A stretch of 54,236 nt of DNA from an uncultured Actinomycetes bacterium (GTDB lineage: Bacteria > Actinomycetota > Thermoleophilia > RBG-16-64-13). Where the stretch lies: positions 1 to 54,236 of the forward strand of contig CAIQPS010000110.1 of NCBI GenBank assembly GCA_903873715.1, in the 5' to 3' direction. Below, piece by piece: positions 3,126 to 49,013 of this stretch. Below the pieces are notes generated by a model. It saw only the letters and a program-made list of their open reading frames with translations. It searched no databases and was not told the DNA's origin. The number at the start of each line of letters is the position of its first letter. The stretch's first letter is position 1. Position numbers and translations under genes: made by a program.

Positions 3126-5830
<2,705 letters not shown>

Positions 5831-5901
5831 GGGCGCAGCGCGGTCGTTTTCGCATAAGGCAGCACAGGGGCAACAAGCAGTTTCACAAGGAGGAGGTTGT
5901 A

Positions 5902-23798: not shown

Positions 23799-26021
23799 CT
23801 AAACGTCTTGCATCCCCGAGGACGGGACGAAGCCGTACTCTTCGGTGTGGAACACGCTCTCGGTAAGCTCCTCGTCCTTCGCCTTGTACACCTTGCAGAG
23901 CAGGCAGGTGAGGTCGGGGGAGCCGTACATCGGGTCGAGATGGTTGTTGCTGGTGAGCACGTTCGGGTTCGAGATGAACACGCCGTGGTAGCCCTTCGCC
24001 GGCTCTTCCGGGTAGAAGCAGTTGGCGGTGGCCATCAGGACGCCCTTCTTGATGCCCGGGAAGGTGCGCAGCTTCTGGCGGATCCGGCCGCGCGGCGACT
24101 CGATCCAGACGATGTCGCCGTCCTCGACGTCGTAGAGCTTGGCCGTCTCGGGGTGCAGCTGGCAGGTGGGGAACTCCATGAAGCTGCGGAGCCACGGGAT
24201 GTTCCGGTACTGGCCCAGGAAGTAGAAGGGCTGGCGGTAACCGGAGCTCATGACGATCGGGTATTCCTTGTAGAGGTCCGGCGTGCTCACGGGGCTCTCA
24301 CCGGGTTCCGCGAACTGCGGCAGGCCGGGGTAGCCCAGCGATTCCAGGTGCTGCGACTTGAACTCGAACTGCCCCGACGGGGTCGGGAAGCCGCCGCCTT
24401 CTTTCCAGAAGTCGGTCTTGTACTTGTAGTACACCTGGTCGGGGCCGTAGCAGCCGCTGATGAGCTTCTCGCTGAAGTCCTTCCAGGTGAGCGCCGATTC
24501 GCCGTCTTTGCCCTTGCCGCGGCGCAGCTGGTAGTCGAGCATCTCGTAGTCGTCGTTCCACCACTTGTCGGGGACGACGCGCTTGCCGACCTCGTTGAAG
24601 ATCCATGCGTCCGACCGGGCTTCTCCCGGCGGGTCCACGACCTTGTTGTGCGCTTCGATGAAGAAGCGCGGATGCATGTCGTAGACGTCGTCGAGTTCGA
24701 GCCAGTGGGCCGCCGGCAGGACGATGTCCGCCGCTTCGGCCATGGGACCCATGAACAGGTCGGTGTGGCTCATGAAGTCGACCATCTCGATGGCCTTGAC
24801 CACTTCCTTGGTGTTGGCCATGTGAACGATCTGCTGCCCACCCACGGAGAACCAGACCTTGATGGGGGATTTCCCCTCGAGGATCCGCTTGACCATGGCG
24901 TCGGGGTTGCAGGTCCGCGTAGCGCCCATCTTGAAGCGGTCCCCGCCGATGATGTTCTTCTTCATCTCGTCGGTGATGGGGAGTTCGAGGTTGAAGTCCT
25001 CGATGAGGCCGGTGTCCGGGAGGACCCAGCTGATCATGCTGCCCGGCGCCTCGATGTTGCCGGCGAGGCCCATGAGGCAGGTGATGGCGCGGAGCGTGTG
25101 GCCGCAGTTGGCCTGGCGCTCGAGCGAGCTACCCACCTGGATGGTCCCCGGGGTGTCGATGGCCCACATGCGGGCGGCCGTGATGACGTCTTCCTTGGGG
25201 ATCCAGCAGGTGTTGGAGACCTTCTCGGGCGTCCATTCCTTGACGTGCTCGCGCAGTTCCTCGAACCCGTACGTCCAATTCTCGACGAAGTCCTTGTCCC
25301 ACAGTTCCTCTTCCATGATGACGTTCATCATGCCGAGGGCGAGGGCGGAGTCCGTGCCGGGACGCGGCTGGATCCAGAGGTTGGCGCGGGACGCGTACGC
25401 GCTGGCCCGCGGATCGATGATGATGAGGTTCTTGACGTAGTCGAGAGAGTTCATGAACCAGTAGCACATCTCGGAGTCGGCGCTGCTGATCTCGAGCTGC
25501 TTGGCCCACATGATCTGGGTCTTCGGGAAGACCCCGCCCCAACCGTGGTAGTCGCAGTAGAGGCGGCCGTAGCCGGTGACCAGGGCGTAGAGGCCCAGGC
25601 GCGGGCTGTGGCAGACGTAACCCGGGGTGATGGCGTTACCGGTGCCCAGGGAGCGCGCCATCCGCATGGTGTACCGGTTGTAGCCGCGGCCGGTACCCTG
25701 GGAGATGGCGATGCTCTGCGGCCCCGGATCGGCGATGGCGGCCTTCATCTTGGCGGCGACGGTGTCCAGGGCTTCGTCCCAGGAGATCCGCTTCCACTTG
25801 CCCTCGCCCTTTTTCCCCACCTGCTTCATGGGGTACTTGATGCGGTAAGGGTTGTCGATGTGCTGGATGCTCGAGAGGCCCTTGGCGCACATGGTGCCGC
25901 CGGTGAGGGACTTGTCGTTGCCCTCGATCTTGACGATTACGCCGTCCTCTTTGGTGACCTTGACCCCGCAGCCGCCGTGGCAGCTCTTGCAGGTGGTATA
26001 GACAACTTCTCTGTTAGCCAT
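23799..26021 (-). CDS. Molybdopterin (bis-MGD) oxidoreductase catalytic subunit of a three-subunit complex
   Basis: A 740-residue member of the DMSO reductase superfamily. An N-terminal [4Fe-4S] motif has Cys 11, 14, 18 and 45. The likely Mo ligand is Cys137 in TPGYVCHSP. Later segments typical of the family are WAKQLEISSADSE, IIDPRASAYASRANLWIQPRPGTD and SSGYRQPFYFLGQYRNIPW. There is no twin-arginine signal, so the active site should face the cytoplasm, unlike PsrA/PhsA/TtrA enzymes. It is encoded after an FeS subunit and an NrfD-type anchor, in one operon. Electrons would pass between quinone and a cytoplasmic substrate. The substrate is unknown; catechol-type dehydroxylases of gut actinobacteria are one comparison. 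A GAGGAGA ribosome site supports the ATG. Confidence 0.9.
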   Translation of the reverse strand: MANREVVYTTCKSCHGGCGVKVTKEDGVIVKIEGNDKSLTGGTMCAKGLSSIQHIDNPYRIKYPMKQVGKKGEGKWKRISWDEALDTVAAKMKAAIADPGPQSIAISQGTGRGYNRYTMRMARSLGTGNAITPGYVCHSPRLGLYALVTGYGRLYCDYHGWGGVFPKTQIMWAKQLEISSADSEMCYWFMNSLDYVKNLIIIDPRASAYASRANLWIQPRPGTDSALALGMMNVIMEEELWDKDFVENWTYGFEELREHVKEWTPEKVSNTCWIPKEDVITAARMWAIDTPGTIQVGSSLERQANCGHTLRAITCLMGLAGNIEAPGSMISWVLPDTGLIEDFNLELPITDEMKKNIIGGDRFKMGATRTCNPDAMVKRILEGKSPIKVWFSVGGQQIVHMANTKEVVKAIEMVDFMSHTDLFMGPMAEAADIVLPAAHWLELDDVYDMHPRFFIEAHNKVVDPPGEARSDAWIFNEVGKRVVPDKWWNDDYEMLDYQLRRGKGKDGESALTWKDFSEKLISGCYGPDQVYYKYKTDFWKEGGGFPTPSGQFEFKSQHLESLGYPGLPQFAEPGESPVSTPDLYKEYPIVMSSGYRQPFYFLGQYRNIPWLRSFMEFPTCQLHPETAKLYDVEDGDIVWIESPRGRIRQKLRTFPGIKKGVLMATANCFYPEEPAKGYHGVFISNPNVLTSNNHLDPMYGSPDLTCLLCKVYKAKDEELTESVFHTEEYGFVPSSGMQDV

Positions 26022-26049
26022 AGTGTCTCCTCAACACACTGCCGTGCGT

Positions 26050-27021
26050 CTAGTACGCGTGGGCTTTGGGGAGCAGGGGCCGGTAGATGCCAACCTTGAG
26101 GACGCCGTACTTGAGCGAGAACGCCCCGATGGTGTGGCAACAGATCGCGAAGACCAGCAGTCCGAGCGAAGACGGGCCGGAGAAGTAGCTGGTCACCGAG
26201 ATGATGAACGGGACCAGGATCCCGAGGATCACGATGCCGAGCCAGAAGACCCAGGCGACGTGACCGCGGACCAGTTCCTTGACCGACAACTCAGCCGTCT
26301 CCGACTGGTAGTTGGCGTTGACCAGATACGCGACGATGAGCAGCGAGTTGAGGATCAGCATGATCCTTGTGGCCTGCTCTGCGATCTCAGTGACTTCCTG
26401 TCCGGCCACCAGGCCGGTGGCCATGGCCAGCGCCAGCCCGTCGGCCACGCCCATGAAGAGGAACACGATGGGCAGGAGGCCCGTGTTCCAGAAGGGCACG
26501 CTCTTGCAGTAGCTCATGGCGAAGCCGCAATAGACGGCGGTCATCACACAGAAGACACCGGCCAAGACCATGAAGACGTAGTTCGCGTCCATGGCGCCGG
26601 AGGCGAAGGCCACCACTTTGTAGCCGATGAGGCCCTGCAGGACCAACTGTATGGCGCCGAACGCCAAGAAGATCATGGTGAACACGATCCCCCGCGCGAA
26701 CCAGGAGGTGCGCCACGCCTTGCTGAACGGCGGGAACGCCCGCCAGAAGCGGTACCACTTCCCGAGGTAGAAAGCGTGGAGGGGCAGTTTGAAGATGGCG
26801 ATGCCCACCCAACCGAGGAGACCCGCCCAGAAGGCTGTCAGGGCGAATTCCTCCTTGAGGCCCAAGAAGAGGGCGACCAGGTAGAGACCGGTGCCCAGGG
26901 CCGAGAAGACCTCGGCCAGCCACACCATGAGGCCCTTGCCCTCGATCCATTCGGTCTGGGCCATGGGCTTGACCATCCACTCGTGGGTGACCATCCACTG
27001 ACGAGCTGTCCTAGCATTCAT
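26050..27021 (-). CDS. NrfD/PsrC-family membrane subunit
   Basis: A 323-residue polytopic protein with about eight or nine hydrophobic segments (for example WLAEVFSALGTGLYLVALFLG near residue 34 and AWVFWLGIVILGILVPFII near 257). The N-terminal region WMVKPMAQTEWIEGKG and overall pattern fit NrfD/PsrC quinone-interacting anchors, which carry no heme. It would pass electrons between the quinone pool and the FeS subunit. It lies 17 bp after the FeS subunit gene and 28 bp before the catalytic gene, in the order FeS-anchor-catalytic. Confidence 0.88.
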   Translation of the reverse strand: MNARTARQWMVTHEWMVKPMAQTEWIEGKGLMVWLAEVFSALGTGLYLVALFLGLKEEFALTAFWAGLLGWVGIAIFKLPLHAFYLGKWYRFWRAFPPFSKAWRTSWFARGIVFTMIFLAFGAIQLVLQGLIGYKVVAFASGAMDANYVFMVLAGVFCVMTAVYCGFAMSYCKSVPFWNTGLLPIVFLFMGVADGLALAMATGLVAGQEVTEIAEQATRIMLILNSLLIVAYLVNANYQSETAELSVKELVRGHVAWVFWLGIVILGILVPFIISVTSYFSGPSSLGLLVFAICCHTIGAFSLKYGVLKVGIYRPLLPKAHAY

Positions 27022-27038
27022 GTGTCAGTCCCCCCGGC

Positions 27039-27842
27039 CTACTCGCAGTTGTCTTTGACGGCCTTTTTGCCCCGCTCATGCTTCACAGCGAGCTTGGCCT
27101 TGCTCGGCTCGTACACCGTGCTGAGATGCTGGACGACGTACCCGGTCTGCGATTCGCGCGGGGCCGTGTTGTCGTTGCCGCCCAACTTGTAGTCGATGTA
27201 GTAGACGGAGGGGTCGGTGCCGTACTCGGGATGGAGCACGAAGCCGCTCTTCTCACGCAGGAGCCTGGAGACGTTGCTGTTGGGATCGTCGAGATCGCCG
27301 AAGGTGAGCGCCTTGGCCTGGCAGGTGTTCACGCAGGCCGGCGTGGCGTCCCGGTCGATGCCCGGTTTGAGGCCCTTGGGCAGGCCCTCGTCGATCCGCT
27401 CCATGCAGAAGTTGCACTTCTCGGTGGTGCCCCGCTGGTGCGGATAGAGCTTCTCGCCCTTCTTCTCGATGGAAGTCTTCGGATGGCCGGGGAACCAACC
27501 CGGGTCCCTCTTGCGGGACAGGTAGGTGCGGTTCTGATACGGACACGCGATGATGCAGTACCGGCAGCCGAAGCACTTGTCGTGGTCGATGGCGACGATG
27601 CCGTCTTCACGCTTGTACGAGGCCTCGGTCGGGCACGCGTCCACGCAAGGCGCATCCTTGCATTGGTTGCAGCGCACCGGATAGGTGGAAACATCGACCT
27701 TGTATCCCTCGTCCACCTCGAGAGCGATCAGCCTTGGCCACGTCACCCTCAATGGCAGAAAGTGCTCGATGCGGCACGCAGCTACGCAAGCATGGCATCG
27801 GGTGCACTTTGCGAGGTTGATGACCATCCCCCATCTCGCCAT
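27039..27842 (-). CDS. Four-cluster [4Fe-4S] electron-transfer subunit
   Basis: A 267-residue ferredoxin-like subunit with all four Cys motifs: CTRCHACVAAC (from Cys13), CNQCKDAPCVDACP, CFGCRYCIIACP and CNFC...CVNTC. This is the DmsB/PsrB type. No Tat signal is present, so it is cytoplasmic like its catalytic partner. The ATG at 27842 is chosen because GGGGAGG precedes it. An upstream in-frame ATG would add 19 unrelated residues. The C-terminal tail after about residue 225 is Lys-rich and unlike standard PsrB. It is the first gene of the operon. Confidence 0.92.
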   Translation of the reverse strand: MARWGMVINLAKCTRCHACVAACRIEHFLPLRVTWPRLIALEVDEGYKVDVSTYPVRCNQCKDAPCVDACPTEASYKREDGIVAIDHDKCFGCRYCIIACPYQNRTYLSRKRDPGWFPGHPKTSIEKKGEKLYPHQRGTTEKCNFCMERIDEGLPKGLKPGIDRDATPACVNTCQAKALTFGDLDDPNSNVSRLLREKSGFVLHPEYGTDPSVYYIDYKLGGNDNTAPRESQTGYVVQHLSTVYEPSKAKLAVKHERGKKAVKDNCE

Positions 27843-27892
27843 GGGCACCTCCCCTTTTAACCCGTCACGAATAAACCCGGACTCATAGCACG

Positions 27893-28005
27893 ATAGCACA
27901 AAACATATCAGGTGATATCAAGATAACGAGGAATGGAATACTAAGGGGACTTCATTCTGAGTCCGCATGGCTCTTAGGCCCGAAATCCGGTATACCGATA
28001 TCACC
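27893..28005. promoter_or_regulatory. Molybdoenzyme operon promoter and GATATC operators
   Basis: On the minus strand, TTGATA (complement of 27916-27921), 17 bp, then TGCTAT (complement of 27893-27898). The -35 box lies within palindrome ATATCA-GG-TGATAT (27905-27918) and GGTGATATC (27911-27919). An inverted copy GATATCACC lies at 27997-28005, upstream of the divergent IclR gene. These are good candidate IclR sites. A further CGGTATACCG palindrome lies at 27988-27997. Confidence 0.5.
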
Positions 28006-28069
28006 TTCATGCTACCATCGTGTGAAGCCGACCGCCTGGCGTCGAGTGGCTTTTTTGGGGGTTCAGCAC

Positions 28070-33386: not shown

Positions 33387-34247
33387 ATGAGCCAAGCAGT
33401 AGTAACCGGGCTCAACGGCCTGTCGTACGCGTTCATCCTGTTCCTGCTTGCCGCCGGCTTCTCACTGACGTTCGGCGTCATGGGCGTCCTCAACCTGGCC
33501 CACGGGGCCCTGTACATGCTCGGCGCCTACATCGGCATGCAGGTCATCGCCTCGGTGCATCAGTTCTGGCTGGCCGTCGTCGTAGCGGCCATCGCGCTGG
33601 CCATCATCGGCTATGCGCTCTACTGGTTCTTCCTCAAGAAGCTCTACAACAGGGTGCCGGAGCAAGGGGTGCTCACCATCGGGTTGGCGTTGATAATCGC
33701 AAACGTGGTGATGTGGATCTGGGGGCCGCGAGCCCACAGCATGATGAGCCCTCACGGCCTCACCGGAGTAGTGCACATCGGCAGCCTGGGCTTCCCCGTC
33801 TATAGACTGTTCGTCGTGGGCATCGGCGTCCTGGTGCTGGCGCTGCTCTGGTACATGCAGGACCGCACTCGGGTGGGTGCCATCATCCGGGCCGGCATGG
33901 ACAACAAGGACATGACGGTGAGCCTGGGTATCAACTATGGGCTGGTGAGCACCTTCGTCTTCCTCCTCGGGATGGCTCTCGCGGGGGTCGCCGGCGTCAT
34001 CGGGGCGCCCATCACCGGGGCGTACCCGTCGATGGGTGACAACCTCCTCCTGCTCACCCTCATCGTGGTGGTGGTCGGCGGTACCGGATACATCCAGGGG
34101 ACCATGCTCGGGGCACTGGTCATCGGCCTGCTCGACACGTTCGGCAAGGCCTACATCCCCAGGGTCGCTCTCTTCTTCGCCTGGGTCGTCTTCCTCGCCA
34201 TCCTGCTGCTGCGGCCGAGCGGCCTCATCGGAAGGAAGGTGTTCTGA
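33387..34247 (+). CDS. livH: Branched-chain amino acid ABC importer permease LivH (importer 2)
   Basis: A 286-residue hydrophobic permease with the LivH N-terminus (GLSYAFILFLLAAGFSLTFGVMGVLNLAHGALYMLGAYIG, in part). The ATG at 33387 follows GGGGGGAG (33378-33385). The frame stays open further upstream but that stretch is hydrophilic and not permease-like. The stop overlaps livM (TGATG, 34245-34249). It belongs to the five-gene importer 2. Confidence 0.93.
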   Translation: MSQAVVTGLNGLSYAFILFLLAAGFSLTFGVMGVLNLAHGALYMLGAYIGMQVIASVHQFWLAVVVAAIALAIIGYALYWFFLKKLYNRVPEQGVLTIGLALIIANVVMWIWGPRAHSMMSPHGLTGVVHIGSLGFPVYRLFVVGIGVLVLALLWYMQDRTRVGAIIRAGMDNKDMTVSLGINYGLVSTFVFLLGMALAGVAGVIGAPITGAYPSMGDNLLLLTLIVVVVGGTGYIQGTMLGALVIGLLDTFGKAYIPRVALFFAWVVFLAILLLRPSGLIGRKVF

Positions 34248-35311
34248 TGTCCCGCAGATTCCCAGCGGCGAACATGCAGAACGCCGCGGCCGTGTTCGTC
34301 ATCGCGGTAATCGTGCTGCTGCTCCCCTTGTTCCTGCCTACGCATTGGTCCAGTCTTGTCGCGAAGATGATGATCTACGGGCTCTTCGCCACCAGCCTCA
34401 ACATCATCTGGGGATACGCCAACATCCCCAGCTTCGGTCATGCCGCGTTCTTCGGCGCCGGCGCGTATTCCGCCGCCATCCTGGTGCTCAAGCTGGGGAT
34501 CACCAGTTTCTGGCTGGGACTGCTCTTCGCGATCGTGGTCAGCGCTGCCATCGCGGCTATTCTGGGTATCCCGGCGTTCCGCGTCTTCGGAGTGGGGGCC
34601 GGTGCCGTCAACCCCATCTACTTCCTGCTGGCCACCATCGCCTTCGGGGAGTTGCTCTCGAAGCTGGCCATCACCATCCGGCCGGTCACCGGCGGCAGCA
34701 CCGGCATGTCCGGGGTGCCCAGAGCGCATCTCGGGTTCGGCTCGGCCATCAACGAGGAGCAGTTCTACTACCTGGTCTTCGGTATCGGGATCGTCTGCCT
34801 CTTCCTGATGTACCGGATCCTCCACTCGCACTACGGGTATGCGTTGCGCGGTATCCACGACAACGAGAAGCGCATGCAGGCCCTCGGCTACAACACCTGG
34901 CTCTACAAGTACACCTCGTGGATCGTCGCAGGGGTCTTCGGCGGCATCGCCGGTGTGCTCTTCTGCTACTTCGGCTCCACCGTGATGCCCAACAACTTCG
35001 CCATGGCCACCAGCGACATCTCCTTCCTGTTGGTGATCCTCGGCGGCACCACGGTGTTCTTCGGGCCGCTGGTGGGTAGCATCTTCTACGTGGGCATCGA
35101 GTACGTCGCGAGCATCTACCTCCAGGAACGCTGGCCGCTCATCTTCGGCGCCATCATCGTGATCGCCATCATGGCGACGCCCTGGAGCAAGGACCGCTAC
35201 AAGGGGCTGGGGCCGGGCGTGCTGCTTCTGTGGCAGTGGCTCTGCAGGGTGGTCCCGCGGCTGTGGGGCCGCAAGCCCGCCCAGTCCGTCCCGACCGGGA
35301 AGGGGGTGTGA
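34247..35311 (+). CDS. livM: Branched-chain amino acid ABC importer permease LivM (importer 2)
   Basis: A 354-residue permease with the LivM pattern (LFATSLNIIWGYANIPSFGHAAFFGAGAYSAA, in part) and the conserved loop ALRGIHDNEKRMQALGYNTWLYKY. Unlike importer 1, it is a stand-alone protein. The stop overlaps the livG start region. Its C-terminus is basic. Confidence 0.93.
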   Translation: MSRRFPAANMQNAAAVFVIAVIVLLLPLFLPTHWSSLVAKMMIYGLFATSLNIIWGYANIPSFGHAAFFGAGAYSAAILVLKLGITSFWLGLLFAIVVSAAIAAILGIPAFRVFGVGAGAVNPIYFLLATIAFGELLSKLAITIRPVTGGSTGMSGVPRAHLGFGSAINEEQFYYLVFGIGIVCLFLMYRILHSHYGYALRGIHDNEKRMQALGYNTWLYKYTSWIVAGVFGGIAGVLFCYFGSTVMPNNFAMATSDISFLLVILGGTTVFFGPLVGSIFYVGIEYVASIYLQERWPLIFGAIIVIAIMATPWSKDRYKGLGPGVLLLWQWLCRVVPRLWGRKPAQSVPTGKGV

Positions 35312-35313
35312 CC

Positions 35314-36075
35314 GTGGCCCCGCTTCTCGAGACCAACGGCCTCTCGGTGCACTTCGGCGGCTTGGCTGCCGTGCGCAGCGTCAACCTGGCCATCGAGCCG
35401 GGCGAACGGCTGGCGCTCATCGGGCCGAACGGCGCCGGCAAGACCACCTTCTTCAACCTGCTCACCGGCCAGCTCAAGCCTTCGAGCGGCAAGGTGTTCT
35501 TCAAGGGCCAGGACATCACCCACGCCAGCGTGTTCTCGCGGACTCACATGGGGATGTCCCGCTCCTTCCAGATCACCAGCCTCTTCCCGCTGCAGAGCGT
35601 CATGGTCAACGCCATGATCGGGCTGCAGGGGGTGGAAAAGAGCCGTTACGGCTTCTACCGGCCCATGTTCAAAGACAAGGACCTCGTCAAAGCGGCCCAG
35701 GAGCTGCTCGAGTCGCAAGAGCTATGGGATCTCCGGGACGAGATCGTGGGCTCGCTGGCCTACGGTCAGCAGCGCAAGCTGGAGATAGGCCTGAGTCTCG
35801 CCAGCCAGCCGGAGCTGCTGCTGCTGGACGAACCGAGCTGCGGCCTGACCATGGTGGAGAGCGCGGACATCACCAAGCGGATCAAAGCTCTGGGCTCCAA
35901 GATCACGGTGCTCATGATCGCGCACGACATGGACCTGGTGTTCGGTGTGGCCGACCGGGTGGTCCTGCTCCACTACGGCGAGATCGCCTGCGAGGGCACC
36001 TGCGAGGAGATCAGGCAGAACGCCATGGTGAGGGAGATCTACATGGGCAGCCGCAAGCAGTTGGGCGGTAAATGA
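35314..36075 (+). CDS. livG: ABC importer ATPase LivG (importer 2)
   Basis: A 253-residue ATPase. Walker A is GPNGAGKTTFFN. The signature is AYGQQRKLEIGLSLA and Walker B LLLLDEPSCGLT. The switch His is in MIAHDMDLV. GTG 35314 is chosen because it lies seven bases after AGGGGG (35301-35306). GTG 35308, which overlaps the livM stop, is an alternative two codons earlier. It couples ATP hydrolysis to transport with LivF. Confidence 0.92.
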   Translation: MAPLLETNGLSVHFGGLAAVRSVNLAIEPGERLALIGPNGAGKTTFFNLLTGQLKPSSGKVFFKGQDITHASVFSRTHMGMSRSFQITSLFPLQSVMVNAMIGLQGVEKSRYGFYRPMFKDKDLVKAAQELLESQELWDLRDEIVGSLAYGQQRKLEIGLSLASQPELLLLDEPSCGLTMVESADITKRIKALGSKITVLMIAHDMDLVFGVADRVVLLHYGEIACEGTCEEIRQNAMVREIYMGSRKQLGGK

Positions 36076-36076
36076 C

Positions 36077-36781
36077 ATGCTGCAGGTTACCGACATCCAC
36101 ACCTGGTACGGCGACAGCTACATCCTGCAGGGAGTCTCCCTGGAGGTGAAGGACGGCACTTGCGTGGTCCTGCTCGGCCGCAACGGCATGGGCAAGACCA
36201 CCACCATCCGCTCCATCATGGGGTTGGCGCCGCCTCGGCAGGGCAGCATCGTGTTCAACGGCAACGAGCTCGTCGGCATGCCGACCCACAAGATCGCCCG
36301 GCTCGGCATCGGGCTCATCCCGCAGGGGCGGTTGATCTTCCAGTCGCTTTCCGTGGTCGAGAACCTGAAGATGGCCGCCCGGCCGGCGGGCAAGAAGGAT
36401 CCATGGACCCTGGACAAGGTGTTCACGGTGTTCCCGAAGCTGGCCGAACGCCGCAAGAACAAAGGGAACCTGCTGAGCGGGGGCGAGCAGCAGATGCTGA
36501 CCATCGCCCGGGCGCTCATGACCAACCCGGACCTGCTGCTGTTCGACGAGCCGTCGGAAGGTCTCGCGCCGGTCGTGGTGGACGAGGTCTTCAGGGTCAT
36601 CGGGGAGCTCAAGAAGGCGGGCGAGTCCATCCTCCTGGTGGAGCAGGACTTCGGTATGGCCATGAGTGTCGCCGACTACGCCTACATCATGAGCCGGGGC
36701 GCCGTAGTGTACGAGTCGGCCCCCGAGCAACTCATAAACGACGAGCACGCCAAAGCCACGCATCTTGGCGTGGGTGAGTGA
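36077..36781 (+). CDS. livF: ABC importer ATPase LivF (importer 2)
   Basis: A 234-residue ATPase, standard LivF length. Walker A is GRNGMGKTT. The signature is LLSGGEQQMLTIARALM and Walker B LLLFDEPSEGLAP. The switch region is LVEQDFGMAM. It starts one base after the livG stop. The receptor gene follows 94 bp later. Confidence 0.93.
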   Translation: MLQVTDIHTWYGDSYILQGVSLEVKDGTCVVLLGRNGMGKTTTIRSIMGLAPPRQGSIVFNGNELVGMPTHKIARLGIGLIPQGRLIFQSLSVVENLKMAARPAGKKDPWTLDKVFTVFPKLAERRKNKGNLLSGGEQQMLTIARALMTNPDLLLFDEPSEGLAPVVVDEVFRVIGELKKAGESILLVEQDFGMAMSVADYAYIMSRGAVVYESAPEQLINDEHAKATHLGVGE

Positions 36782-36875
36782 TACATAAAGAGGTTCGAGA
36801 TCCGAGGGGGAAGGAGGGCCACTTCTCGAGCGGGATGATCGAAGCGATGTGGACAAACTTGTTAGGGGGGTTCGA

Positions 36876-38141
36876 ATGAACAAGAGACTTCTTCTGATCC
36901 TGATGGTCCTGGTGCTCGGCCTCGCTGTGTTCGCCGCAGCCTGCGGTTCGAGTACGACGACCACGACGGCGGCCGGTACCGCCACCACGGCGGCTCCCGG
37001 CAGCACCGATACCACGGCCGGCGCCGCGACCGGCGAGCCCATCAAGCTCGGCTACGACGAGGGGTTCACCAACTTCATGTCCTACGACACCCTGCAGGGT
37101 GAGATGGGCATCAAGACGGCCCTCGCCATGCTCAACAACCAGTGGATGGGCCGTCCGCTGCAGTATTTCCCGGAAGACAGCACCTCCGACCCGGTCGTCG
37201 CGGTGGACAAGGCCCGCAAACTCGTGGAGAGCGACAAGATCAACGCCATGATCGGCCCGATCTTCTCCCCGGCGGCCAAATCCGTCACCGACTACCTGGG
37301 CAAATCCTCCGGCATCCCGATGATCTCCATCAACGGGCAGCCGACCGACAACCTGGCGACGGCGAGCGGGCTGGCCTTCCTCCAGATGGGCCTCTTCGAC
37401 TCCCAGGGCTACTACTTCGGTAAGTACCTGGCTGAGAAGGGCTACAAGACCGCCAACCTCATCAACTACGACGACACTCCGGCGCACGCCCTCATGGCGG
37501 GCTTCAAGAAAGCCTTCGTCGATGAAGCCGGCGGCAAGGTCATCAGCGAGAACTACATCGACATCACCACCGTGGACTTCAGCTCCTACCTGTCGGCGAT
37601 GAAACCGGCCGATGTGACCGTGGACTGGATCTTCGGTAACGGCGCGGTGCCGTTCGTGAAGCAGTACAAGGACTATGGCCTCACCGCCCCGCTCGCGGTG
37701 CCGATGTCCAACAACTACACCGACCCGCAGCTTGCCGAACTCGGCGACATCGCCCTCGGCATGATCGCCTGCGACTTCTACGCGTACACCCTCACCAACC
37801 CGGGCAACGCTGAGTTCGTCGCGGCGTTCGAGAAGCTGTTCCCCGACCAGGGCGGACCGAACTCCGAGGTCTACGGCGCCTACCAGGCCGTCATGGTCTA
37901 CCTCGAGGGCCTCAAAGCCGCCGGTGGCGACACCACCCCGGCCAAGGTCATCCCCGCGATCGCCGGTCTGAAACTCGACACCCCGGCCGGTCACGTGGAG
38001 TTCCAGAAGTTCCAGAACGCCTACATCCCGAAGCGCGACTGGTTCATGCTGGAAGCCCAGAAGGTCGGCGACGTCATCACCTGGGTGCCGGTGAAGACCT
38101 TCAGCCAAGTGGTGCTCGGGGACCTTACGACCGTCCCGTGA
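36876..38141 (+). CDS. ABC receptor lipoprotein (importer 2)
   Basis: A 421-residue Peripla_BP_6 type receptor. The signal MNKRLLLILMVLVLGLAVF ends in a lipobox with Cys23 (FAAAC). A Thr/Ala/Gly linker of about 30 residues follows, then the binding domain (PIKLGYDEGFTNFMSYDT). ATG 36876 follows AGGGGGG (36864-36870). It has the same layout as the importer 1 receptor but a shorter linker without the 24-bp repeats. The binding domains differ enough to suggest different ligands. Terminator 38175 follows. Confidence 0.92.
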   Translation: MNKRLLLILMVLVLGLAVFAAACGSSTTTTTAAGTATTAAPGSTDTTAGAATGEPIKLGYDEGFTNFMSYDTLQGEMGIKTALAMLNNQWMGRPLQYFPEDSTSDPVVAVDKARKLVESDKINAMIGPIFSPAAKSVTDYLGKSSGIPMISINGQPTDNLATASGLAFLQMGLFDSQGYYFGKYLAEKGYKTANLINYDDTPAHALMAGFKKAFVDEAGGKVISENYIDITTVDFSSYLSAMKPADVTVDWIFGNGAVPFVKQYKDYGLTAPLAVPMSNNYTDPQLAELGDIALGMIACDFYAYTLTNPGNAEFVAAFEKLFPDQGGPNSEVYGAYQAVMVYLEGLKAAGGDTTPAKVIPAIAGLKLDTPAGHVEFQKFQNAYIPKRDWFMLEAQKVGDVITWVPVKTFSQVVLGDLTTVP

Positions 38142-39768: not shown

Positions 39769-40587
39769 CTACTTGGCGAGAGCGATGTCTCCCAGGTTGA
39801 CGTCCTTGGCGGTCACGATCCCGTCGATGGTCTTGGTGGCGAAGCCGGGGGCGGCGATCGTCAGCGTGAAGCTGGCGTCGTCGGCCAGGCCGCGGAACCA
39901 GAAGTCGCCGAAGCCGTCGGTGGTGGCGGTGCAGGTCGCGCCGTCGGCGCCTTTGAGCGTCAGGGTCGCGCCCTCGACGATCTCTTTGGCAGCCGGGTCG
40001 TAGATCGTGCCGGCCACGAACTTCTTCGGGATGTTGAGGTAGTACACCCGGGGCTTGCATCCCTCTTCAGGCATGAGGATCTCAGCCTTGGCGATGAGGT
40101 CCGCGAAGTCCTCTTCCTCACCGAACATGATGGCTTCGGTGTGGCAGGCGTCCGCGCAGCGCGGGACCTTCCACTCGCCGCCGTCGAGCAGGTGGGCGCA
40201 CCCGGTGCACTTCTGCGCCAGGTTCAGGTCGTCGTTGAAGTAGATGGCGTCGTACGGGCAGGCGTCCACACACATGCGGCAGCCGATGCACTTGTCGGCG
40301 TCGATCTCCACGAGACCGTCTTCGCGTTTGTACATGACACCCTCGACGTCGCACGCCTTGATGCAGGGCGCGTCGTCGCAATGCTGGCAGAGCAGCGGGA
40401 TGTAGTGCATCTCGACCTTGGGCACCGTGCCGCGGATGTACTCCTTGAGGTGCATCCAGAACTGCCCGGTGTCGGGCTGCGGCTTGGCGATCGGCGACCA
40501 GTCATTGCCGACGTGCTCGTCCTTGCAGACGAACTGGCAGGCGTAGCAGCCGGTGCACTTATCGACATCGATAACGAATACCTTCAT
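39769..40587 (-). CDS. Transhydroxylase-like small subunit 1: four [4Fe-4S] motifs plus C-terminal Cna-B-like domain
   Basis: A 272-residue protein. All four ferredoxin motifs are complete: Cys11/14/17/21 (CTGCYACQFVC), CQHCDDAPCIKAC, CIGCRMCVDACP and CTGC...CADAC. Residues about 195-272 form a beta-rich carboxypeptidase-regulatory/Cna-B-like domain (VAGTIYDPAAKEIVEGATLTLKG...). That layout matches the small subunit (AthS, about 274 residues) of Pelobacter pyrogallol:phloroglucinol transhydroxylase. The Pelobacter protein binds only three clusters. Four intact motifs suggest real electron transfer, so a reductase is also possible. It follows the large subunit by seven bases with AAAGGTAAGG before the ATG. 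It is cytoplasmic with no signal. Confidence 0.88.
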   Translation of the reverse strand: MKVFVIDVDKCTGCYACQFVCKDEHVGNDWSPIAKPQPDTGQFWMHLKEYIRGTVPKVEMHYIPLLCQHCDDAPCIKACDVEGVMYKREDGLVEIDADKCIGCRMCVDACPYDAIYFNDDLNLAQKCTGCAHLLDGGEWKVPRCADACHTEAIMFGEEEDFADLIAKAEILMPEEGCKPRVYYLNIPKKFVAGTIYDPAAKEIVEGATLTLKGADGATCTATTDGFGDFWFRGLADDASFTLTIAAPGFATKTIDGIVTAKDVNLGDIALAK

Positions 40588-40594
40588 CTATGCC

Positions 40595-43216
40595 TTACCT
40601 TTCCACGACCCACGCGTCGAAGCGTAGGCCTGCGCCGGGATCGTACTTACGGGCGAAAGCATCCGGGTAATCCCTGCGCCACGCCTCCCACTCTTCATTC
40701 TTGACCTTCTGGACGTCCACGATGTAGCCACTGGTGGCCTGGCCGCAGCAGTTCTTGGAGGTCAGTCCGTTCGGAGCGATGGTGTTGATGGCGCCGCCGC
40801 GGTCGACCTTGCCGGGGATCAGCGGGTCGTGCCGGGCGCCGTGGTCCACGTAGACCACGCCGGGCATGATGCGTTCCCAGACACGGGCGCCGACGAGGAC
40901 GATACCGCGCTCGTTGAACACCTTGACGACGTCGCCGTCTTTGATGCCGCGGGCTTCGGCGTCCCCAGGGTTGATCCAGATCGGCTCGTAGTTGTAGCCG
41001 TCGAAGCCGAGGACCTTGCCGGTCGGGGTCTCGCGGGCCCACACGATGTCGTCACCCTGGGCGTGAGTACGCCAGCGCGGGTGGTTGGACATGAGGAGGA
41101 GCGGGAACATCCCGGCGCGCTCGCTGGCGAGGGATTCGTCGTGCGTGATACCGCGTTCGACCCACTGCGGGAAGGGCGGGCGTTCTTTGTCGTCCGGGAA
41201 GTGGTCCGCGAGCCGCTGCGAGTAGAACTCGAGCAGGCCGCTCGGGGTCAGGAGCGGGTTGCTCTTGGGATCCTCGTAGAACTTGCGGAATCCCGGAGGA
41301 TCCTGCTCCCAGTCGGTCGCAGTCTTGTACACGTAGGTCTTCTTCTCGTAGAAGTCTTCCCACGTGGTCAGCTTGTCCATCTTCATGGCGTCGAAGACGA
41401 TCTTCTGCAGGTCCATGGTGGACAGGCCGCCGGTGAACTCGTCACCGTAGCCGAGTTTGTCGGCGATGGCGGCCACGATCTCGTAGTCGCTCTTGGATTC
41501 GCCGACCGGGCGGACCGACTGTTCCTGGATGGACACGCTCGCGAAGTGCGGGCCCTGCCGCACGGTGGTCACGATGTCCTCGACCTCGAGAGTGGTGTTG
41601 GCCGGCAGGATGATGTCGGCGTACAGGCACTCGTTCTCGAGCCAGGGATGCTGGGCCACGATGGTCTCGATGCTGTCGTGCTTCATGGCATCGATGGTCC
41701 AGTTGCCGTGGTTCCAGCAGGTGATGCGGCACGGGGTGTCGGTCCAGATCATGTGGATCGGGACGCCGCCCTTTTCCTTCTCGATCGGGTAGGTGTACTT
41801 GGTGAACTGCTCTTCCGTCTGGCACTCCTGGCCGCCGCTACCGTGGAAGACCAGCGGGGCCTTCATGATGGCGTCCTGGATGAGGGTCTTCGGGATGAGC
41901 TGCGGGCCCCAGGCGTGGACGGTGGTCCAGCAGGGTTTGGTGAGGCGCTCGGGGAGGTCCGGGTTGAAGAAACGGACGCTGCCCAGGCCCTCGGCGCGTG
42001 GCATACCGAAGTAGGTCATCTGCGCCTGGTGCACGCCGGGGCCGCCGAGGCCCTGCATGCCCAGCATGACGCACTCGAGACGGCCGGGCTCGTGAGAGTA
42101 CGGGCCGCGGAAGGCCGAGCCGCCGAAGTAGTGGATGATGGAGGTGGTGTTCTTGGCGAACTGGCGGGCGAGGGCCTTGATGGTCCACTCGGGCACGCCG
42201 CACTTCTTGGAGGCCCATTCGGGGGTCTTCGGGAAGCCGTCTTCATCGGTCCCGAGGACGTAGGCCTCGATCTTGTCCATGCCGACCGCGTGGGTCTTGA
42301 CGTATTCCTTGTCCCAGGTGCCCTCGGTGAGCCACACGTAGATGACGGCCAACTGGAGAGCGGCGTCCGTGTTCGGCAGCACCGGGATCCACTTGTCACC
42401 ATGGACGGCGTTGGCATAGTTCAGGTCCGGGCAGATGTAGACCTGTTTGATGCCGGCGCGAGTCCAGAACTGGGAGATGCGGCTGGCGTACTGGCCGGTG
42501 AAACCCCAGGGGGTGGTCTCTTCGTCGCAGCCCCACTTCAGCACCATGTCGCAGTTCTCGGAGATGTCTTTGATGAGGTTGGCCGCCGGGGACATCATGC
42601 CCTGGAAGCCCTGGCCCCACACGTGCTTGGCGCCCCAGTACCAGCCCTCCCAGGAGTCCGGGTTACGGACCTGCTGGGTGAAGCCGCCCATCATGTCGAG
42701 CAGGCGGGCCTGATGGCCGTGCGGGGTATGGATGGTCTTGTTCTCGCCGTGGCCGTCACCCTGGGCGAGGATGGCGAGCGGGCCGTATTCCTTATGGATC
42801 CTAGTGACTTCGGAAGCCACGAGGTCGATGGCCTCTTCCCAGGAGATGCGCACATACTTGCTCTTGCCACGGTTCTGGGGGTTGCGTTCCCCGTTCGGGT
42901 CCCAGTCCACGCGCTTGAGCGGGAACTTGATCCGGTTCGGGGAGAAGGTGCGCTTCTTGTAAGCCAGGGAGAACGGCGCCGGCAGGGCCTTGGACAGCGG
43001 GCTCAGGCTCTCGCCGTTGCGCGTGATGGTCCACGGGCGCAGTGATTCGAAGTCGGTCTTCCAGTCGTATTTGTAGGGCCGGATACGGATGGCCTTGCCG
43101 TCCTTGACGTCGACGAAGCACTCGCCGCCGCCGCCGAGGAGGCCACCCATGGCCAGGTTCTTGATGGTGACCTTGTCGACGCTTACGTCGACCTTTTTAC
43201 GGTCCTTATCCCCCAT
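40595..43216 (-). CDS. Transhydroxylase-like molybdoenzyme large subunit 1
   Basis: An 873-residue bis-MGD enzyme, about the size of Pelobacter AthL (about 875). It lacks the N-terminal four-Cys [4Fe-4S] motif seen in most of the superfamily; only one Cys (33) occurs early. The Asp187-Ser188 of NPDSWEGW sits where AthL has Asp174 and Mo-ligand Ser175 (numbers from memory), and His156 (GDGHGE) corresponds to His144. AthL transfers a hydroxyl between phenols, turning pyrogallol into phloroglucinol without net redox change. No Tat signal, so it is cytoplasmic. GAAAGGAAG precedes the ATG. It may be cotranscribed with the IclR gene 105 bp upstream. The exact substrate is unknown; related catechol dehydroxylases are the alternative. 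Confidence 0.88.
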   Translation of the reverse strand: MGDKDRKKVDVSVDKVTIKNLAMGGLLGGGGECFVDVKDGKAIRIRPYKYDWKTDFESLRPWTITRNGESLSPLSKALPAPFSLAYKKRTFSPNRIKFPLKRVDWDPNGERNPQNRGKSKYVRISWEEAIDLVASEVTRIHKEYGPLAILAQGDGHGENKTIHTPHGHQARLLDMMGGFTQQVRNPDSWEGWYWGAKHVWGQGFQGMMSPAANLIKDISENCDMVLKWGCDEETTPWGFTGQYASRISQFWTRAGIKQVYICPDLNYANAVHGDKWIPVLPNTDAALQLAVIYVWLTEGTWDKEYVKTHAVGMDKIEAYVLGTDEDGFPKTPEWASKKCGVPEWTIKALARQFAKNTTSIIHYFGGSAFRGPYSHEPGRLECVMLGMQGLGGPGVHQAQMTYFGMPRAEGLGSVRFFNPDLPERLTKPCWTTVHAWGPQLIPKTLIQDAIMKAPLVFHGSGGQECQTEEQFTKYTYPIEKEKGGVPIHMIWTDTPCRITCWNHGNWTIDAMKHDSIETIVAQHPWLENECLYADIILPANTTLEVEDIVTTVRQGPHFASVSIQEQSVRPVGESKSDYEIVAAIADKLGYGDEFTGGLSTMDLQKIVFDAMKMDKLTTWEDFYEKKTYVYKTATDWEQDPPGFRKFYEDPKSNPLLTPSGLLEFYSQRLADHFPDDKERPPFPQWVERGITHDESLASERAGMFPLLLMSNHPRWRTHAQGDDIVWARETPTGKVLGFDGYNYEPIWINPGDAEARGIKDGDVVKVFNERGIVLVGARVWERIMPGVVYVDHGARHDPLIPGKVDRGGAINTIAPNGLTSKNCCGQATSGYIVDVQKVKNEEWEAWRRDYPDAFARKYDPGAGLRFDAWVVER

Positions 43217-43321: not shown

Positions 43322-44134
43322 CTAGGAAGCGGCTGCCAGCGTCGGATTGGGGTTCCACCCCAGGTAGGCAGAGAACGCGGCGCACGCGGATTTCACCGCC
43401 TGCGTGCAGAGCTCGCGCTCGGTGGGGCCGAAGCGGCCGGTCGGGACGACCACCGACACGGTGGCCGCGATGTTCCCCACCTGGTCACGCACCGGCGCAC
43501 CCACGGCGCAGGTGCCGATGTAGATGCCCTCGAGGTCGTACGCCACGCCTTCGTTGGCCACCCTGTCCAACTCGGCCCGGATCTCGTCCGGGTCGGTGAC
43601 CGAGTAGGGGGTGTGCTGCGGGTGCGGCTGGGCGAGGAGGGACTCGCGCTCCTCGGGTGACTTGAACGCGGCGTAGAGCTTGCCGTGGACCGAAACGAGG
43701 TCCCCGAGGATGCGCCCTGGCGCCGTGCGGCGCTTGAACGGGCGGTTGGTGTCGATGATGTCCACGCAGACAGGGAAACCGTCGATGTCGACGGCCAGGG
43801 TGACCGACTCCCCGGTCTCCTTGGTGAGTCTTTCGAGGAACGGCCGGGCGGCCTGCACGAGCGAGGAATTGTCCTCTGCTATATATGTGAGGGCCAGAGC
43901 GGCGGGGCCCAGGCGGTATCGGTTGGCGCTCGAATCGCGCACGAGGAAGGCCATGGATTCCAGGGTGCGGACCATCCGGTACGCGGTCATGCGGAGCAGA
44001 CCGGTCTGTTCGGCCATCTCGTCGATGGTCCATTCCCGGTGGTCGACGTCAAAAAGGCCGAGGATGGAGAGCCCGCGGACCAGCGCCCTCACAGAAAAGG
44101 GGTCGGTTTCCCGGGATTCTTTACTCGTCGCCAT
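43322..44134 (-). CDS. IclR-family transcription regulator (2)
   Basis: A 270-residue regulator. The winged helix is VRGLSILGLFDVDHREWTIDEMAEQTGLLRMTAYRMVRTLE (in part). The effector domain has LERLTKETGESVTLAVDIDGFPV, then GTCAVGAPVRDQVGNIAATVSVVVPTGRFG. ATG 44134 follows GGGGGGCTG. The frame stays open far upstream but that stretch is not IclR-like. It lies between the two transhydroxylase-like pairs and probably regulates both. It is a close paralogue of regulator 1 (28070-28891): the motif NRYxLGPA, the segment LLAQPHPQ and the end VVPTGRFG are shared. Confidence 0.91.
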   Translation of the reverse strand: MATSKESRETDPFSVRALVRGLSILGLFDVDHREWTIDEMAEQTGLLRMTAYRMVRTLESMAFLVRDSSANRYRLGPAALALTYIAEDNSSLVQAARPFLERLTKETGESVTLAVDIDGFPVCVDIIDTNRPFKRRTAPGRILGDLVSVHGKLYAAFKSPEERESLLAQPHPQHTPYSVTDPDEIRAELDRVANEGVAYDLEGIYIGTCAVGAPVRDQVGNIAATVSVVVPTGRFGPTERELCTQAVKSACAAFSAYLGWNPNPTLAAAS

Positions 44135-44299: not shown

Positions 44300-46822
44300 A
44301 TGGCTGAAAAAGTGTTCGCGAACCTCACCAACAGTGGGCCGGTCTCGGTCTACGTGAAGGACGGCAAGATCGTCCGGGTGCGGCCGCTCGTGGTCGAGCC
44401 TGACGACTACAAGCCGTGGGTCATCGAAGCCGGCGGCAAGAAGTACTCGCCGCCGAAGAAACCCACCCTCTCCCCGTACATCCACGCCGAACGCCGCCGC
44501 ATCTACTCCGACGAGCGCATCAAGTACCCGATGAAGCGCGTCGACTTCGACCCGGACGGCGAGCGCAACCCGCAGAACCGCGGCAAATCCCGCTACGAGC
44601 GCATCTCCTGGGACGAGGCCGCCAGCATCGTCGCCAAGGAGATCAAGCGGGTGCGCGAGACCTACGGTGGCTCCGCCATCTCCGGCATCACGTCGTCCCA
44701 CCACAACTGGGGCATCGTGGGCTACAAGATGGGCCCGTTCCTCCGCTTCATGAACATGCTCGAATACACCCCGGTGCTCGACAACCCCGACAGCTGGGAA
44801 GGCTGGCACTGGGGCGCTTCGCACACCTACGGCTTCTTCTGGCGCCTGGGTATGCCGGAGCCCTACGATTGCCTCGGCGACGCCCTGCAGAACGCCGAGC
44901 AGATCGTCTACTGGTCAAACGACCCGGACTCGACGCGCGGCACCTACTCCGGCCAGGAGTCGTCCCTGTGGCGGCAGTGGCTCAAGGAGAAGGGCGTCAA
45001 GATGGTCTTCATCGACCCCTTCCACAACTACACGAACGCTGTGATGGGCGGCAAGTGGATCGCCCCGCGGCTCGGCACGGACACGGCCATCGCCATGGCC
45101 ATCGCCTACGTGTGGATCGAAGAAGACACCTATAACAAGGAATACGTCGCCAACCGCACCATCGGCTTCGACAAGTTCAAGCCGTACGTGATGGGCGAGA
45201 CCGACGGCGTGCCGAAGACCCCTGAGTGGGCGGAAGAGGAATCGGGCGTGAGCGCCCGCACCATCCGCACTCTGGCCCGCGAGTGGGCAGCCAAGCGGAC
45301 CATCCTGTCCGGCGGCTCCCGCGGCGGCGAGGGCGGCGCCTGCCGTACGGCGTACGGCACCGAATGGGCCCGCATGATGGTGCTGCTCCAGGCCATGCAG
45401 GGCCTGGGCGGTCCGGGCCGCAGCATCTGGGGCACCACGATGGGCGCCCCCAACGACACCTCCACCTGGTTCCCGGGCTACGGCGAGCCGGACGGCCGCA
45501 TGTCCATGTCCAAGGCCGCCAACTGGCTCCCGCAGAACCCCACCAAGCAGCGCCTCTGGCGTCTGACGGTGCCCGAGTCCATTCTCGACGGCCACACCGA
45601 GTGGTACGGCGAGGGCTTCTGCGGCAAGTCGCTCGAGCAGCAGTTCACCCACTTCGAGTACCCGATGGAAGGCCACTCCGAGATCAAGATGTGGTACCGC
45701 TACGGCGGCTCCTTCATCGGCACCATGAGCGACACCAACAACTGGGTGCGCATGTACCAGAGCCCGAAGTTGGAGTTCGTGGTCAACCAGGACATCTGGT
45801 GGCAGAGCGAGACCCGCTTCGCCGACATCATCCTGCCGGCGTGCACCAACTTCGAGCGCGACGACATCGGTGAATGGGCGGCCATCGGCGGCTACACCGT
45901 GCACGCGTCGAGCGGCTGCAACTACCGCTACATCGTCCGCGAGCAGAAGTGCATCGAGCCCCTCTGGGAGTCCAAGTCGGACTACGAGATCTTCGCCCTC
46001 GTCGCCGAGAAGATGGGCCGCCGCGACGAGTTCACCGACGGTGGCAAGACCGAGCTCGACTGGGCCAAGGCCTTCTTCGACATCTCCGACCTGCCCAAGT
46101 ACATCAGCTGGGAAGAGCTCAACGAGAAGGGCTACCACATCGTCAACATCCGCGACGACTACAAGCCCACCCCGTCCATGCGCTGGTTCTACGAGAGCCG
46201 CGACTGCGACACGCCCGACACCGGCAACCCGAAGCGCCTCACCGAGAAGAAGGCCGAGCTTGGCACCTTCTCCGGCCTCATCGAGTTCGAGTCGGTGAGC
46301 CTCAAGCAGTACTTCCCCGATGACGACGAGCGCCCGGTGGTGCCGCGCTACATCCCCAGCTGGGAGGGCCACCACACCACCGAGCTCTTCGAGAAGTACC
46401 CGCTGGCCCTGATGTCGCCGCACCCTCGCATGTCGTTCCACTGCCACTACGACAAGCACACCGACTGGCTCAACGACATCCCGGTGCACCGCATCAAGAA
46501 GGATGGCTTCGCCTGGTGGCCGGCCCGCATCAACCCGGTGGACGCCTGCGTGCGGGGCATCAACAACAACGACATCGTCCGCCTGTACAACGACCGCGGC
46601 TCCGTGCTCTGCATCGCGGTGGTCACCGACCGGGTGCGCCCCGGCGTCATCCACAGCTACGCGTCCGCGGCCCATTACGATCCGCTGCAACCGGGCGACC
46701 CCACCTCGATAGACCGGGGCGGCTGCGTGAGCATCCTGACCCCCGCCCGCATGATGTCCAAGAACGTCCCGGGCATGACTCCGAACTCTTGTTTGATCGA
46801 GATCGAGAAGTGGGAGGCCTGA
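44300..46822 (+). CDS. Transhydroxylase-like molybdoenzyme large subunit 2
   Basis: An 840-residue bis-MGD enzyme and paralogue of the 40595-43216 product. No Cys motif is present at the N-terminus, so it has no [4Fe-4S] cluster of its own. Asp164-Ser165 (NPDSWEGW) and His134 (SSHHNWG) reproduce the His/Asp/Ser spacing expected from Pelobacter transhydroxylase: His to Asp is 30 residues in both, by my recollection of that enzyme. Shared segments with subunit 1 include FDPDGERNPQNRGKSRYERISWDEA (in part). No Tat signal. The small subunit follows one base after the stop. It is divergent from IclR 2. Transfer of hydroxyl groups between polyphenols in the cytoplasm is the best family-based guess. 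Confidence 0.88.
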   Translation: MAEKVFANLTNSGPVSVYVKDGKIVRVRPLVVEPDDYKPWVIEAGGKKYSPPKKPTLSPYIHAERRRIYSDERIKYPMKRVDFDPDGERNPQNRGKSRYERISWDEAASIVAKEIKRVRETYGGSAISGITSSHHNWGIVGYKMGPFLRFMNMLEYTPVLDNPDSWEGWHWGASHTYGFFWRLGMPEPYDCLGDALQNAEQIVYWSNDPDSTRGTYSGQESSLWRQWLKEKGVKMVFIDPFHNYTNAVMGGKWIAPRLGTDTAIAMAIAYVWIEEDTYNKEYVANRTIGFDKFKPYVMGETDGVPKTPEWAEEESGVSARTIRTLAREWAAKRTILSGGSRGGEGGACRTAYGTEWARMMVLLQAMQGLGGPGRSIWGTTMGAPNDTSTWFPGYGEPDGRMSMSKAANWLPQNPTKQRLWRLTVPESILDGHTEWYGEGFCGKSLEQQFTHFEYPMEGHSEIKMWYRYGGSFIGTMSDTNNWVRMYQSPKLEFVVNQDIWWQSETRFADIILPACTNFERDDIGEWAAIGGYTVHASSGCNYRYIVREQKCIEPLWESKSDYEIFALVAEKMGRRDEFTDGGKTELDWAKAFFDISDLPKYISWEELNEKGYHIVNIRDDYKPTPSMRWFYESRDCDTPDTGNPKRLTEKKAELGTFSGLIEFESVSLKQYFPDDDERPVVPRYIPSWEGHHTTELFEKYPLALMSPHPRMSFHCHYDKHTDWLNDIPVHRIKKDGFAWWPARINPVDACVRGINNNDIVRLYNDRGSVLCIAVVTDRVRPGVIHSYASAAHYDPLQPGDPTSIDRGGCVSILTPARMMSKNVPGMTPNSCLIEIEKWEA

Positions 46823-46823: not shown

Positions 46824-47660
46824 ATGACGCGCCTTGGTCTGCTCATCGACGTCACCAAGTGCAGCGGTTGCCACAACTGCTTCCTCGCCTGCCGTGACGA
46901 GTACTACGACAACGACTACTCGCCGTACTCGGCCCCGCAGCCGCTGGACGGCCAGTTCTGGATGCAGGTGAAGGAGGTCGAGCGCGGGAGCTATCCCAAG
47001 GTCAAGCTCGACTACATCCCGACCCCGTGCGTCCACTGCGACGACGCTCCGTGCATCGCCATCGCGGCCGACAACGCCGTCTACAAGCGCGAGGACGGGT
47101 TCGTCATCATCGACCCGGTCAAAGCCAAGGGCCAGAAGGACATCGTCAACTCCTGCCCGTACCGGGTGATCTTCTGGAACAAGGAGCTCGATATCCCGCA
47201 GAAGTGCACCATGTGCGCCCACCGGCTGGACCAGGGCGACAGGGAGCCCCGTTGCGTGGAGGCCTGCCCCACCGGCGCCCTCACCTTCGGCGATCTCGAC
47301 GACCCGAACAGCACCATCTCCCAGTACATGGCCGAGAAGAAGATCGAGGACTTCCACCCGGAGTTCGGCACCAAGCCCACCGTCAAGTACGTGGGCGTTC
47401 CCAAGCGCCTCGTGGCCGGTGAAGTGGTGCGCGCGGACAAAAGGGGCGAATGCGCCGAGGGCGCGAAGATCACCCTGGAGGGCGACGGCGTCAAGCTGGA
47501 GACCGCGTCCGACAGCTACGGCGACTTCGAGTTCGAAGGCGTGGACAAGAACAAGACCTACAAGCTGACCGTCTCGCTGGCCGGCTACGCCACCCTGAGC
47601 TGCGACATCAGCACCCATACCGACGTCAACCTCGGGGAGATCGTCCTCGAGCGCGCGTAG
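46824..47660 (+). CDS. Transhydroxylase-like small subunit 2: three [4Fe-4S] clusters plus Cna-B-like domain
   Basis: A 278-residue protein. Motif I (CSGCHNCFLAC) and motif IV (CTMC...CVEAC) are complete. Motif II reads CVHCDDAPC and then Ala instead of the fourth Cys. In motif III three Cys are replaced (AKGQKDI) and only the last (NSCP) remains. In the pseudo-symmetric ferredoxin fold one cluster uses three Cys of one motif and the last Cys of its partner. The four lost residues are therefore exactly one cluster. Three clusters is the number in Pelobacter transhydroxylase. Residues about 198-278 are a Cna-B-like domain (LVAGEVVRADKRGECAEGAK...). GGGAGG precedes the ATG. Confidence 0.9.
   Translation: MTRLGLLIDVTKCSGCHNCFLACRDEYYDNDYSPYSAPQPLDGQFWMQVKEVERGSYPKVKLDYIPTPCVHCDDAPCIAIAADNAVYKREDGFVIIDPVKAKGQKDIVNSCPYRVIFWNKELDIPQKCTMCAHRLDQGDREPRCVEACPTGALTFGDLDDPNSTISQYMAEKKIEDFHPEFGTKPTVKYVGVPKRLVAGEVVRADKRGECAEGAKITLEGDGVKLETASDSYGDFEFEGVDKNKTYKLTVSLAGYATLSCDISTHTDVNLGEIVLERA

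Positions 47661-47813: not shown

Positions 47814-49009
<1,196 letters not shown>

Positions 49010-49013
<4 letters not shown>

Follow-up and report, generated by a model that had tools for sequence, protein, structure and literature searches.

The window, a 54,236-nucleotide stretch of DNA analysed as a whole, carries two divergent pairs of molybdoenzyme genes, each with one large and one small iron-sulfur subunit, and the two small subunits differ by the cysteines of a single [4Fe-4S] cluster. The question that this locus raises is whether that difference separates a non-redox hydroxyl-transfer enzyme (pair 2) from a redox enzyme (pair 1).

Small subunit 2 lacks the ligands of one cluster

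46824..47660, plus strand: small subunit 2, AthS-type, 278 aa; cluster Cys reduced to 12, which leaves FS1-FS3; CarboxypepD_reg-like beta domain at the C-terminus
47052..47066, plus strand: end of motif II in small subunit 2; C77 retained, A81 at the place of the fourth Cys (an FS4 ligand)
47124..47156, plus strand: motif III of small subunit 2, A101-x2-Q104-x2-I107-x3-C111; three FS4 Cys substituted, FS3 ligand C111 retained

Small subunit 2 is an intact open reading frame whose start lies 1 nt past the stop of large subunit 2 (44300-46822), and of the 16 Cys that a four-cluster paired-ferredoxin subunit carries it retains 12. Motif I (C13/C16/C19/C23) and motif IV are complete, whereas motif II runs C69/C72/C77 and then A81 (PCIAIA), and motif III reads AKGQKDIVNSC. 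The residues that are gone are therefore II4 (A81) and III1-3 (A101, Q104 and I107), which the first-pass annotation had already taken for the four Cys of exactly one cluster. The ligands in NarH bear this out: FS4 is held there by C196, C217 and C223 and FS3 by C184, C187, C192 and C227 (PMC5338063), and on this assignment II4 and III1-3 belong to a single cluster, FS4. In EbDH the FS0-FS4 chain carries electrons to an exit heme (PMC8840923), and since that wire ends at the heme, the cluster missing from small subunit 2 is the outermost one, a place that FS4 also has in NarH. Four random losses among 16 Cys would fall on one ligand set with a probability of 4/1820 (0.0022). Orthologues in other actinobacterial assemblies (L041, L042 and L045; 72-73% identity) lack the same four Cys, so the loss is not a sequencing error, and the remaining 12 are invariant across the actinobacterial orthologues.

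Pair 2 resembles the Pelobacter transhydroxylase

44300..46822, plus strand: large subunit 2, AthL-type Mo-bisMGD subunit of the T clade (see below), 840 aa; equivalents of H144, D174, S175, W176 and Y404 retained; no N-terminal FS0 motif

AthLS (PgtLS) of Pelobacter acidigallici is a pyrogallol-phloroglucinol transhydroxylase of known structure (PDB 4v4c), and its chemistry is hydroxyl transfer (PMC10420851). Large subunit 2 is about 50% identical to AthL, with full-length homology at 905 bits and an AhtL-like domain 1 (PF21423), while small subunit 2 is about 37% identical to AthS and has both the FS4 loss and the C-terminal beta domain in common with it. AthS (PDB 4v4c_B) lacks the same four Cys (PCVAK-GNG, KAKGKKELLDTC); the alignment that the first-pass annotation had set as a check thus shows that AthS does not retain the Cys lost here, and the whole-cluster deletion is indeed of the kind seen in the Pelobacter enzyme. 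AthS is the top PDB match of both small subunits in the window (E 8e-62 for subunit 2, 4e-51 for subunit 1), AlphaFold models (pLDDT 94-95) compared with 4v4c_B give TM values of 0.86 for small subunit 2 and 0.90 for small subunit 1, and the AthS-type carboxypeptidase-regulatory-like domain is present at the C-terminus of both.

In large-subunit trees (97 rows in IQ-TREE quick; 144 rows in FastTree; DMSO/TMAO reductase as outgroup), two deep sister clades are separated with a support of 99-100. We call them T, in which large subunit 2 groups with AthL, and R, which holds large subunit 1. Like AthL, large subunit 2 retains the catalytic and Mo-ligand residues H144, D174, S175 and Y404, whose roles we take to be those given in the 2004 structure study of AthL, retains W176 and has no FS0. 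With the three-cluster small subunit, the missing FS4 ligands and the C-terminal beta domain, pair 2 is, as judged from sequence, a new member of the AthLS class by every family mark examined. Large subunit 2 and AthL belong to different T subclades and are unlike in the pocket residues W354 and R153 of AthL, which are Glu and Lys in large subunit 2 and vary within T. These differences bear on specificity, not on chemistry; in view of them, pyrogallol is probably not the substrate, and a strict specificity for it is unlikely.

FS4 and Tyr404 across the two clades

39769..40587, minus strand: small subunit 1, 272 aa; full set of 16 Cys for four clusters; C-terminal domain as in small subunit 2
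40595..43216, minus strand: large subunit 1, R clade, 873 aa; H144, D174, S175 and W176 retained; Tyr404 and Tyr560 loops missing; no FS0 motif

Relatives numbered at least 585 in a scan of reference genomes, from which the best 80 loci were taken, and the small-subunit alignment has 176 rows (172 distinct retrieved and four reference rows). Many of the sampled loci are from metagenome-assembled genomes. As sampling was seeded from the best matches to large subunit 2, and R pairs come mostly from genomes that also have T, the counts given here and below are not population frequencies: the number of FS4 Cys is four in 50 small subunits, three in 19, one in four and zero in 103, and never two. 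Wide searches for R in the organism's own phylum and in one Firmicutes class yielded almost nothing new. The ligands of FS1 and FS3 are complete in 173 of the 176.

Every T-clade row has lost FS4 (77/77), whereas 58 of 64 R rows have it, 40 with four Cys and 18 with three. The six R rows without FS4 come from three lineages (L248; L072/L082; L098/L100/L261), none with Tyr404, and presence and absence of FS4 require four changes on the tree. Tyr404 (AthL numbering) is found in 75 of 77 T and in 0 of 64 R rows, and Tyr560 in 71 of 77 T and 0 of 64 R rows, the loop being shorter in R; H144, D174, S175 and W176 are conserved in T and R alike. A simple rule that equates FS4 loss with the T clade was considered and dropped, as three R lineages lack FS4 too. 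In these lineages FS4 is gone although Tyr404 is absent too, so the chemistry is not defined by the number of Cys alone: on these alignments, FS4 loss is not a safe marker of a transhydroxylase, nor are 16 Cys a safe marker of a redox enzyme. In one of these R-type small subunits (L072:3161-4003) the motif II-III segment is 75-76% identical to T-type sequences as compared with 49-61% to its R sisters, with R-like flanks, which would fit gene conversion or convergence; averaged over all FS4-less R cases, the segment is intermediate between T and R, as would fit conversion and parallel loss alike.

All 19 three-Cys small subunits miss the same residue, motif-III Cys2, and have N, H, Q or A instead. 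We take this to be the position of Trp220 in NarH, for which reason a [3Fe-4S] FS4 is expected in these cases. R-type small subunits lacking only this Cys are found at L012, L013 and L017 and at 16 other loci, and probably carry a [3Fe-4S] FS4. The four-cluster subunits NarH and EbdB, with a [3Fe-4S] FS4, have the paired-ferredoxin fold in common with the subunits studied here, and the likeness to NarH extends to three R-type copies in the organism's own genome that miss motif-III Cys2. In contrast to the NarH and EbdB systems, the pairs here have no heme subunit, the large subunit has no FS0, and Ser rather than Asp is expected as the Mo ligand.

The organism's own genome (3.3 Mb, 97% complete) holds approximately 17 AthL-type large and 13 small subunits, the latter comprising eight without FS4, two with 16 Cys and three that miss motif-III Cys2 only. 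Roughly 11 of the large subunits are T-type and six R-type, which for phenol-hydroxyl molybdoenzymes is an unusually large number. The loci (L001-L018) lie on contigs C110, C79, C130, C168, C29, C84, C6, C43, C75, C20, C53 and C69; L009 and L011 are large subunits without an adjoining small subunit, and C130 has two tandem large subunits and one small.

Gene neighbourhood

43322..44134, minus strand: gene for an IclR-type regulator, in the gap that separates the two divergent pairs, with an approximate start; related by homology to the IclR at 28022-28891, and in other genomes its homologues stand between R/T pairs or close to them
47814..49013, plus strand: thiolase gene, downstream of pair 2; at 12 loci, the window counted, a thiolase adjoins a pair-2 relative
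23799..27899, minus strand: FeS - NrfD - PhsA-like molybdoenzyme module, putatively quinone-linked; at other loci its orthologues stand right beside R-type pairs

The divergent cassette of an R and a T pair is seen again in Actinobacteria (L041-L043), and in other bacteria (L050/L164, L072, L098, L100, L101, L104) the two kinds of pair also stand together, in various arrangements. Genes that follow pair-2 relatives code for an SDR, a cupin, a PF04199 cyclase, a thiolase, an ATP-grasp CoA ligase or an enoyl-CoA hydratase-like protein; at C69 and C84 of the organism's own genome, T pairs have cyclase genes as neighbours. An SDR (PGR) and a cyclase-family ring hydrolase (DPGCH) take part in the degradation of phloroglucinol (PMC10470551), and as SDR and cyclase neighbours are found here too, a ring-reduction and ring-opening route likely follows pair 2. 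The Clostridium scatologenes phloroglucinol cluster (PGR, DPGCH, HOHDH, TAL) and the surroundings of pair-2 orthologues are alike, at the level of families, in their SDR and cyclase-family genes (PMC10470551), but the former has TAL, whereas the window pair is adjoined by a thiolase and CoA ligases instead.

In L164, L219 and L229 a gene orthologous to that of the PhsA-like protein directly precedes an R pair, in the same orientation and 56-167 nt away; in L217 the two are convergent. Among large subunits with at least 1.5 kb of upstream sequence (45 R and 68 T), such adjacency was seen for four R loci and for no T locus. In the window the NrfD/PhsA module stands about 12 kb away from pair 1. 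We take these few loci as a lead, and as that only, that R enzymes may be tied to quinone-type electron transfer. The module looks cytoplasmic and comes with its own divergent IclR gene (together 23799-28891), homologous to the IclR at 43322-44134. The window also has two ABC transporter sets of the branched-chain-amino-acid type with substrate-binding proteins (2244-7284 and 34247-38141), possibly for aromatics.

Pair 1 as the probable redox sister

All sixteen Cys that had been noted in small subunit 1 were found in its motifs (16/16), and the Tyr404 loop is missing from large subunit 1. Neither AthLS mark is therefore present in pair 1, which by FS4 and Tyr404 is classed as a sister-clade enzyme and not as a transhydroxylase. 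It is probably a redox enzyme: it would add or remove a hydroxyl in a two-electron reaction, with an external carrier, perhaps the quinone pool, as its electron partner. The earlier proposal that pair 1 is redox stands in part, as the wire is intact, the Tyr404 loop is missing and some relatives are co-directional with an NrfD/PhsA module; 16 Cys by themselves are no safe sign of it.

The further suggestion of a reductive dehydroxylase fared less well. An intact wire would fit such two-electron chemistry, as would a presumably anaerobic setting. The gut catechol dehydroxylases Dadh, Cadh and Hcdh are also bis-MGD enzymes acting on aromatic hydroxyls, but they form an acetylene-hydratase-related clade away from Pht/AthL (PMC7028382), whereas the match of large subunit 1 reaches 403 bits with AthL and 47 with acetylene hydratase; on these scores and the published clade statement, pair 1 falls outside the Cdh clade. 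In addition, the named redox member of the family works in the oxidative direction (PMC10100899), and we consider a reductive dehydroxylase possible but doubtful.

That named member is RhLS, the resorcinol hydroxylase of Azoarcus anaerobius, usually grouped with AthL; in the MopB superfamily it is placed with PgtL as a cytoplasmic enzyme with a Ser Mo ligand that performs redox hydroxylation of a phenol (PMC10100899). RhLS was sought in plasmids and in 399 genomes from one betaproteobacterial order, which gave only unnamed or functionally unannotated relatives, and the neighbourhood of a deep betaproteobacterial R branch has no recognisable resorcinol pathway. Were RhLS to fall within the T clade, the non-redox reading of that clade would weaken.

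It could also be that pair 1 is not redox at all, its 16 Cys being merely ancestral (DmsB-like) and both pairs being hydroxyl-transfer or hydration enzymes with different substrates. The DmsB-type outgroup with 16 Cys marks that number as the ancestral state, R lineages of gut Firmicutes have lost FS4, and no electron partner adjoins pair 1 in the window. Pointing the other way, FS4 is retained in 58 of 64 R rows, 18 of them with the NarH-like three-Cys form, which suggests a tuned and selected redox use, and in three genomes a PhsA/NrfD-type module runs in the same direction as an R pair. We regard a non-redox pair 1 as unlikely, and retain the redox reading.

Decay of the wire and the reading of pair 2

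One mainly proteobacterial T clade lacks FS2 as well as FS4, with CTMCAH changed to WxFDAH and drift of IV3 and I4. Read across these sequences, the wire decays from four clusters to three and then to two. Small subunits also without FS2 are found at L061, L118, L121-L123, L143, L145, L148, L149 and L151-L155. Plasmids of Ensifer, Burkholderia and Salipiger carry some of these FS2-less AthS-type genes, which have VOC and fumarylacetoacetate hydrolase genes as neighbours and, in two of these cases, acyl-CoA synthetase genes as well. In three T small subunits of the organism's own genome (L007:4086-4985, L008:638-2017 and L018:883-1791), motif I Cys4 is replaced by Asp, possibly an FS2 with an Asp ligand or else the first step of FS2 decay.

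That pair 2 is still redox, with electrons leaving via FS3 to a soluble partner and FS4 lost along with a membrane or heme partner, would suit the FS1-FS3 Cys, invariant in orthologues beyond what a purely structural role might require, and the R-type enzymes of the window, likewise without an adjoining anchor gene, but it is quite improbable given that the FS2-less proteobacterial group has FS1-to-FS3 transfer broken while retaining the H/D/Y active site, and that AthS, with the same Cys pattern, is part of a known hydroxyl-transfer enzyme.

For pair 2 the best reading is a non-redox hydroxyl-transfer enzyme of the AthLS type, with the lack of net redox inferred from these comparisons. The first-pass annotation had predicted it to be a non-redox transhydroxylase, and the match of 905 bits, the residues H144, D174, S175 and Y404, the loss of FS4 throughout its clade and the neighbours of ring-reduction and ring-opening type all favour this. 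Pair 2 would move, or add and remove, a hydroxyl on a polyphenol-like ring without net electron exchange, so that FS4, the outermost relay for electron entry or exit in related enzymes, would be dispensable. The loss of FS4 would be ancestral to the entire T clade, in which the clusters that are left probably have a structural role or are vestigial. To the joint reading, in which pair 2 performs non-redox T-type hydroxyl transfer and pair 1 is a redox R-type enzyme, we assign a probability of roughly 0.72 on the strength of the sequence comparisons.

Implications

AthLS needs catalytic 1,2,3,5-tetrahydroxybenzene. The divergent R and T cassette might accordingly be a functional couple, the R pair making an extra-hydroxylated primer that the T pair uses as hydroxyl donor, which would be why one pair held on to its wire and its sister took it apart one cluster at a time, with two left in Proteobacteria; we offer this as a long shot.

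The three-cluster small subunit was known from one crystal structure, and is here the rule in a large, widespread clade whose sister mostly has four clusters. Two sequence marks, the FS4 ligands and Tyr404, would sort hundreds of pyrogallol hydroxytransferase relatives into likely non-redox and likely redox enzymes. The family may thus offer a natural experiment in which a redox enzyme sheds its wire stepwise, from four clusters to three to two, and yet retains its active site.
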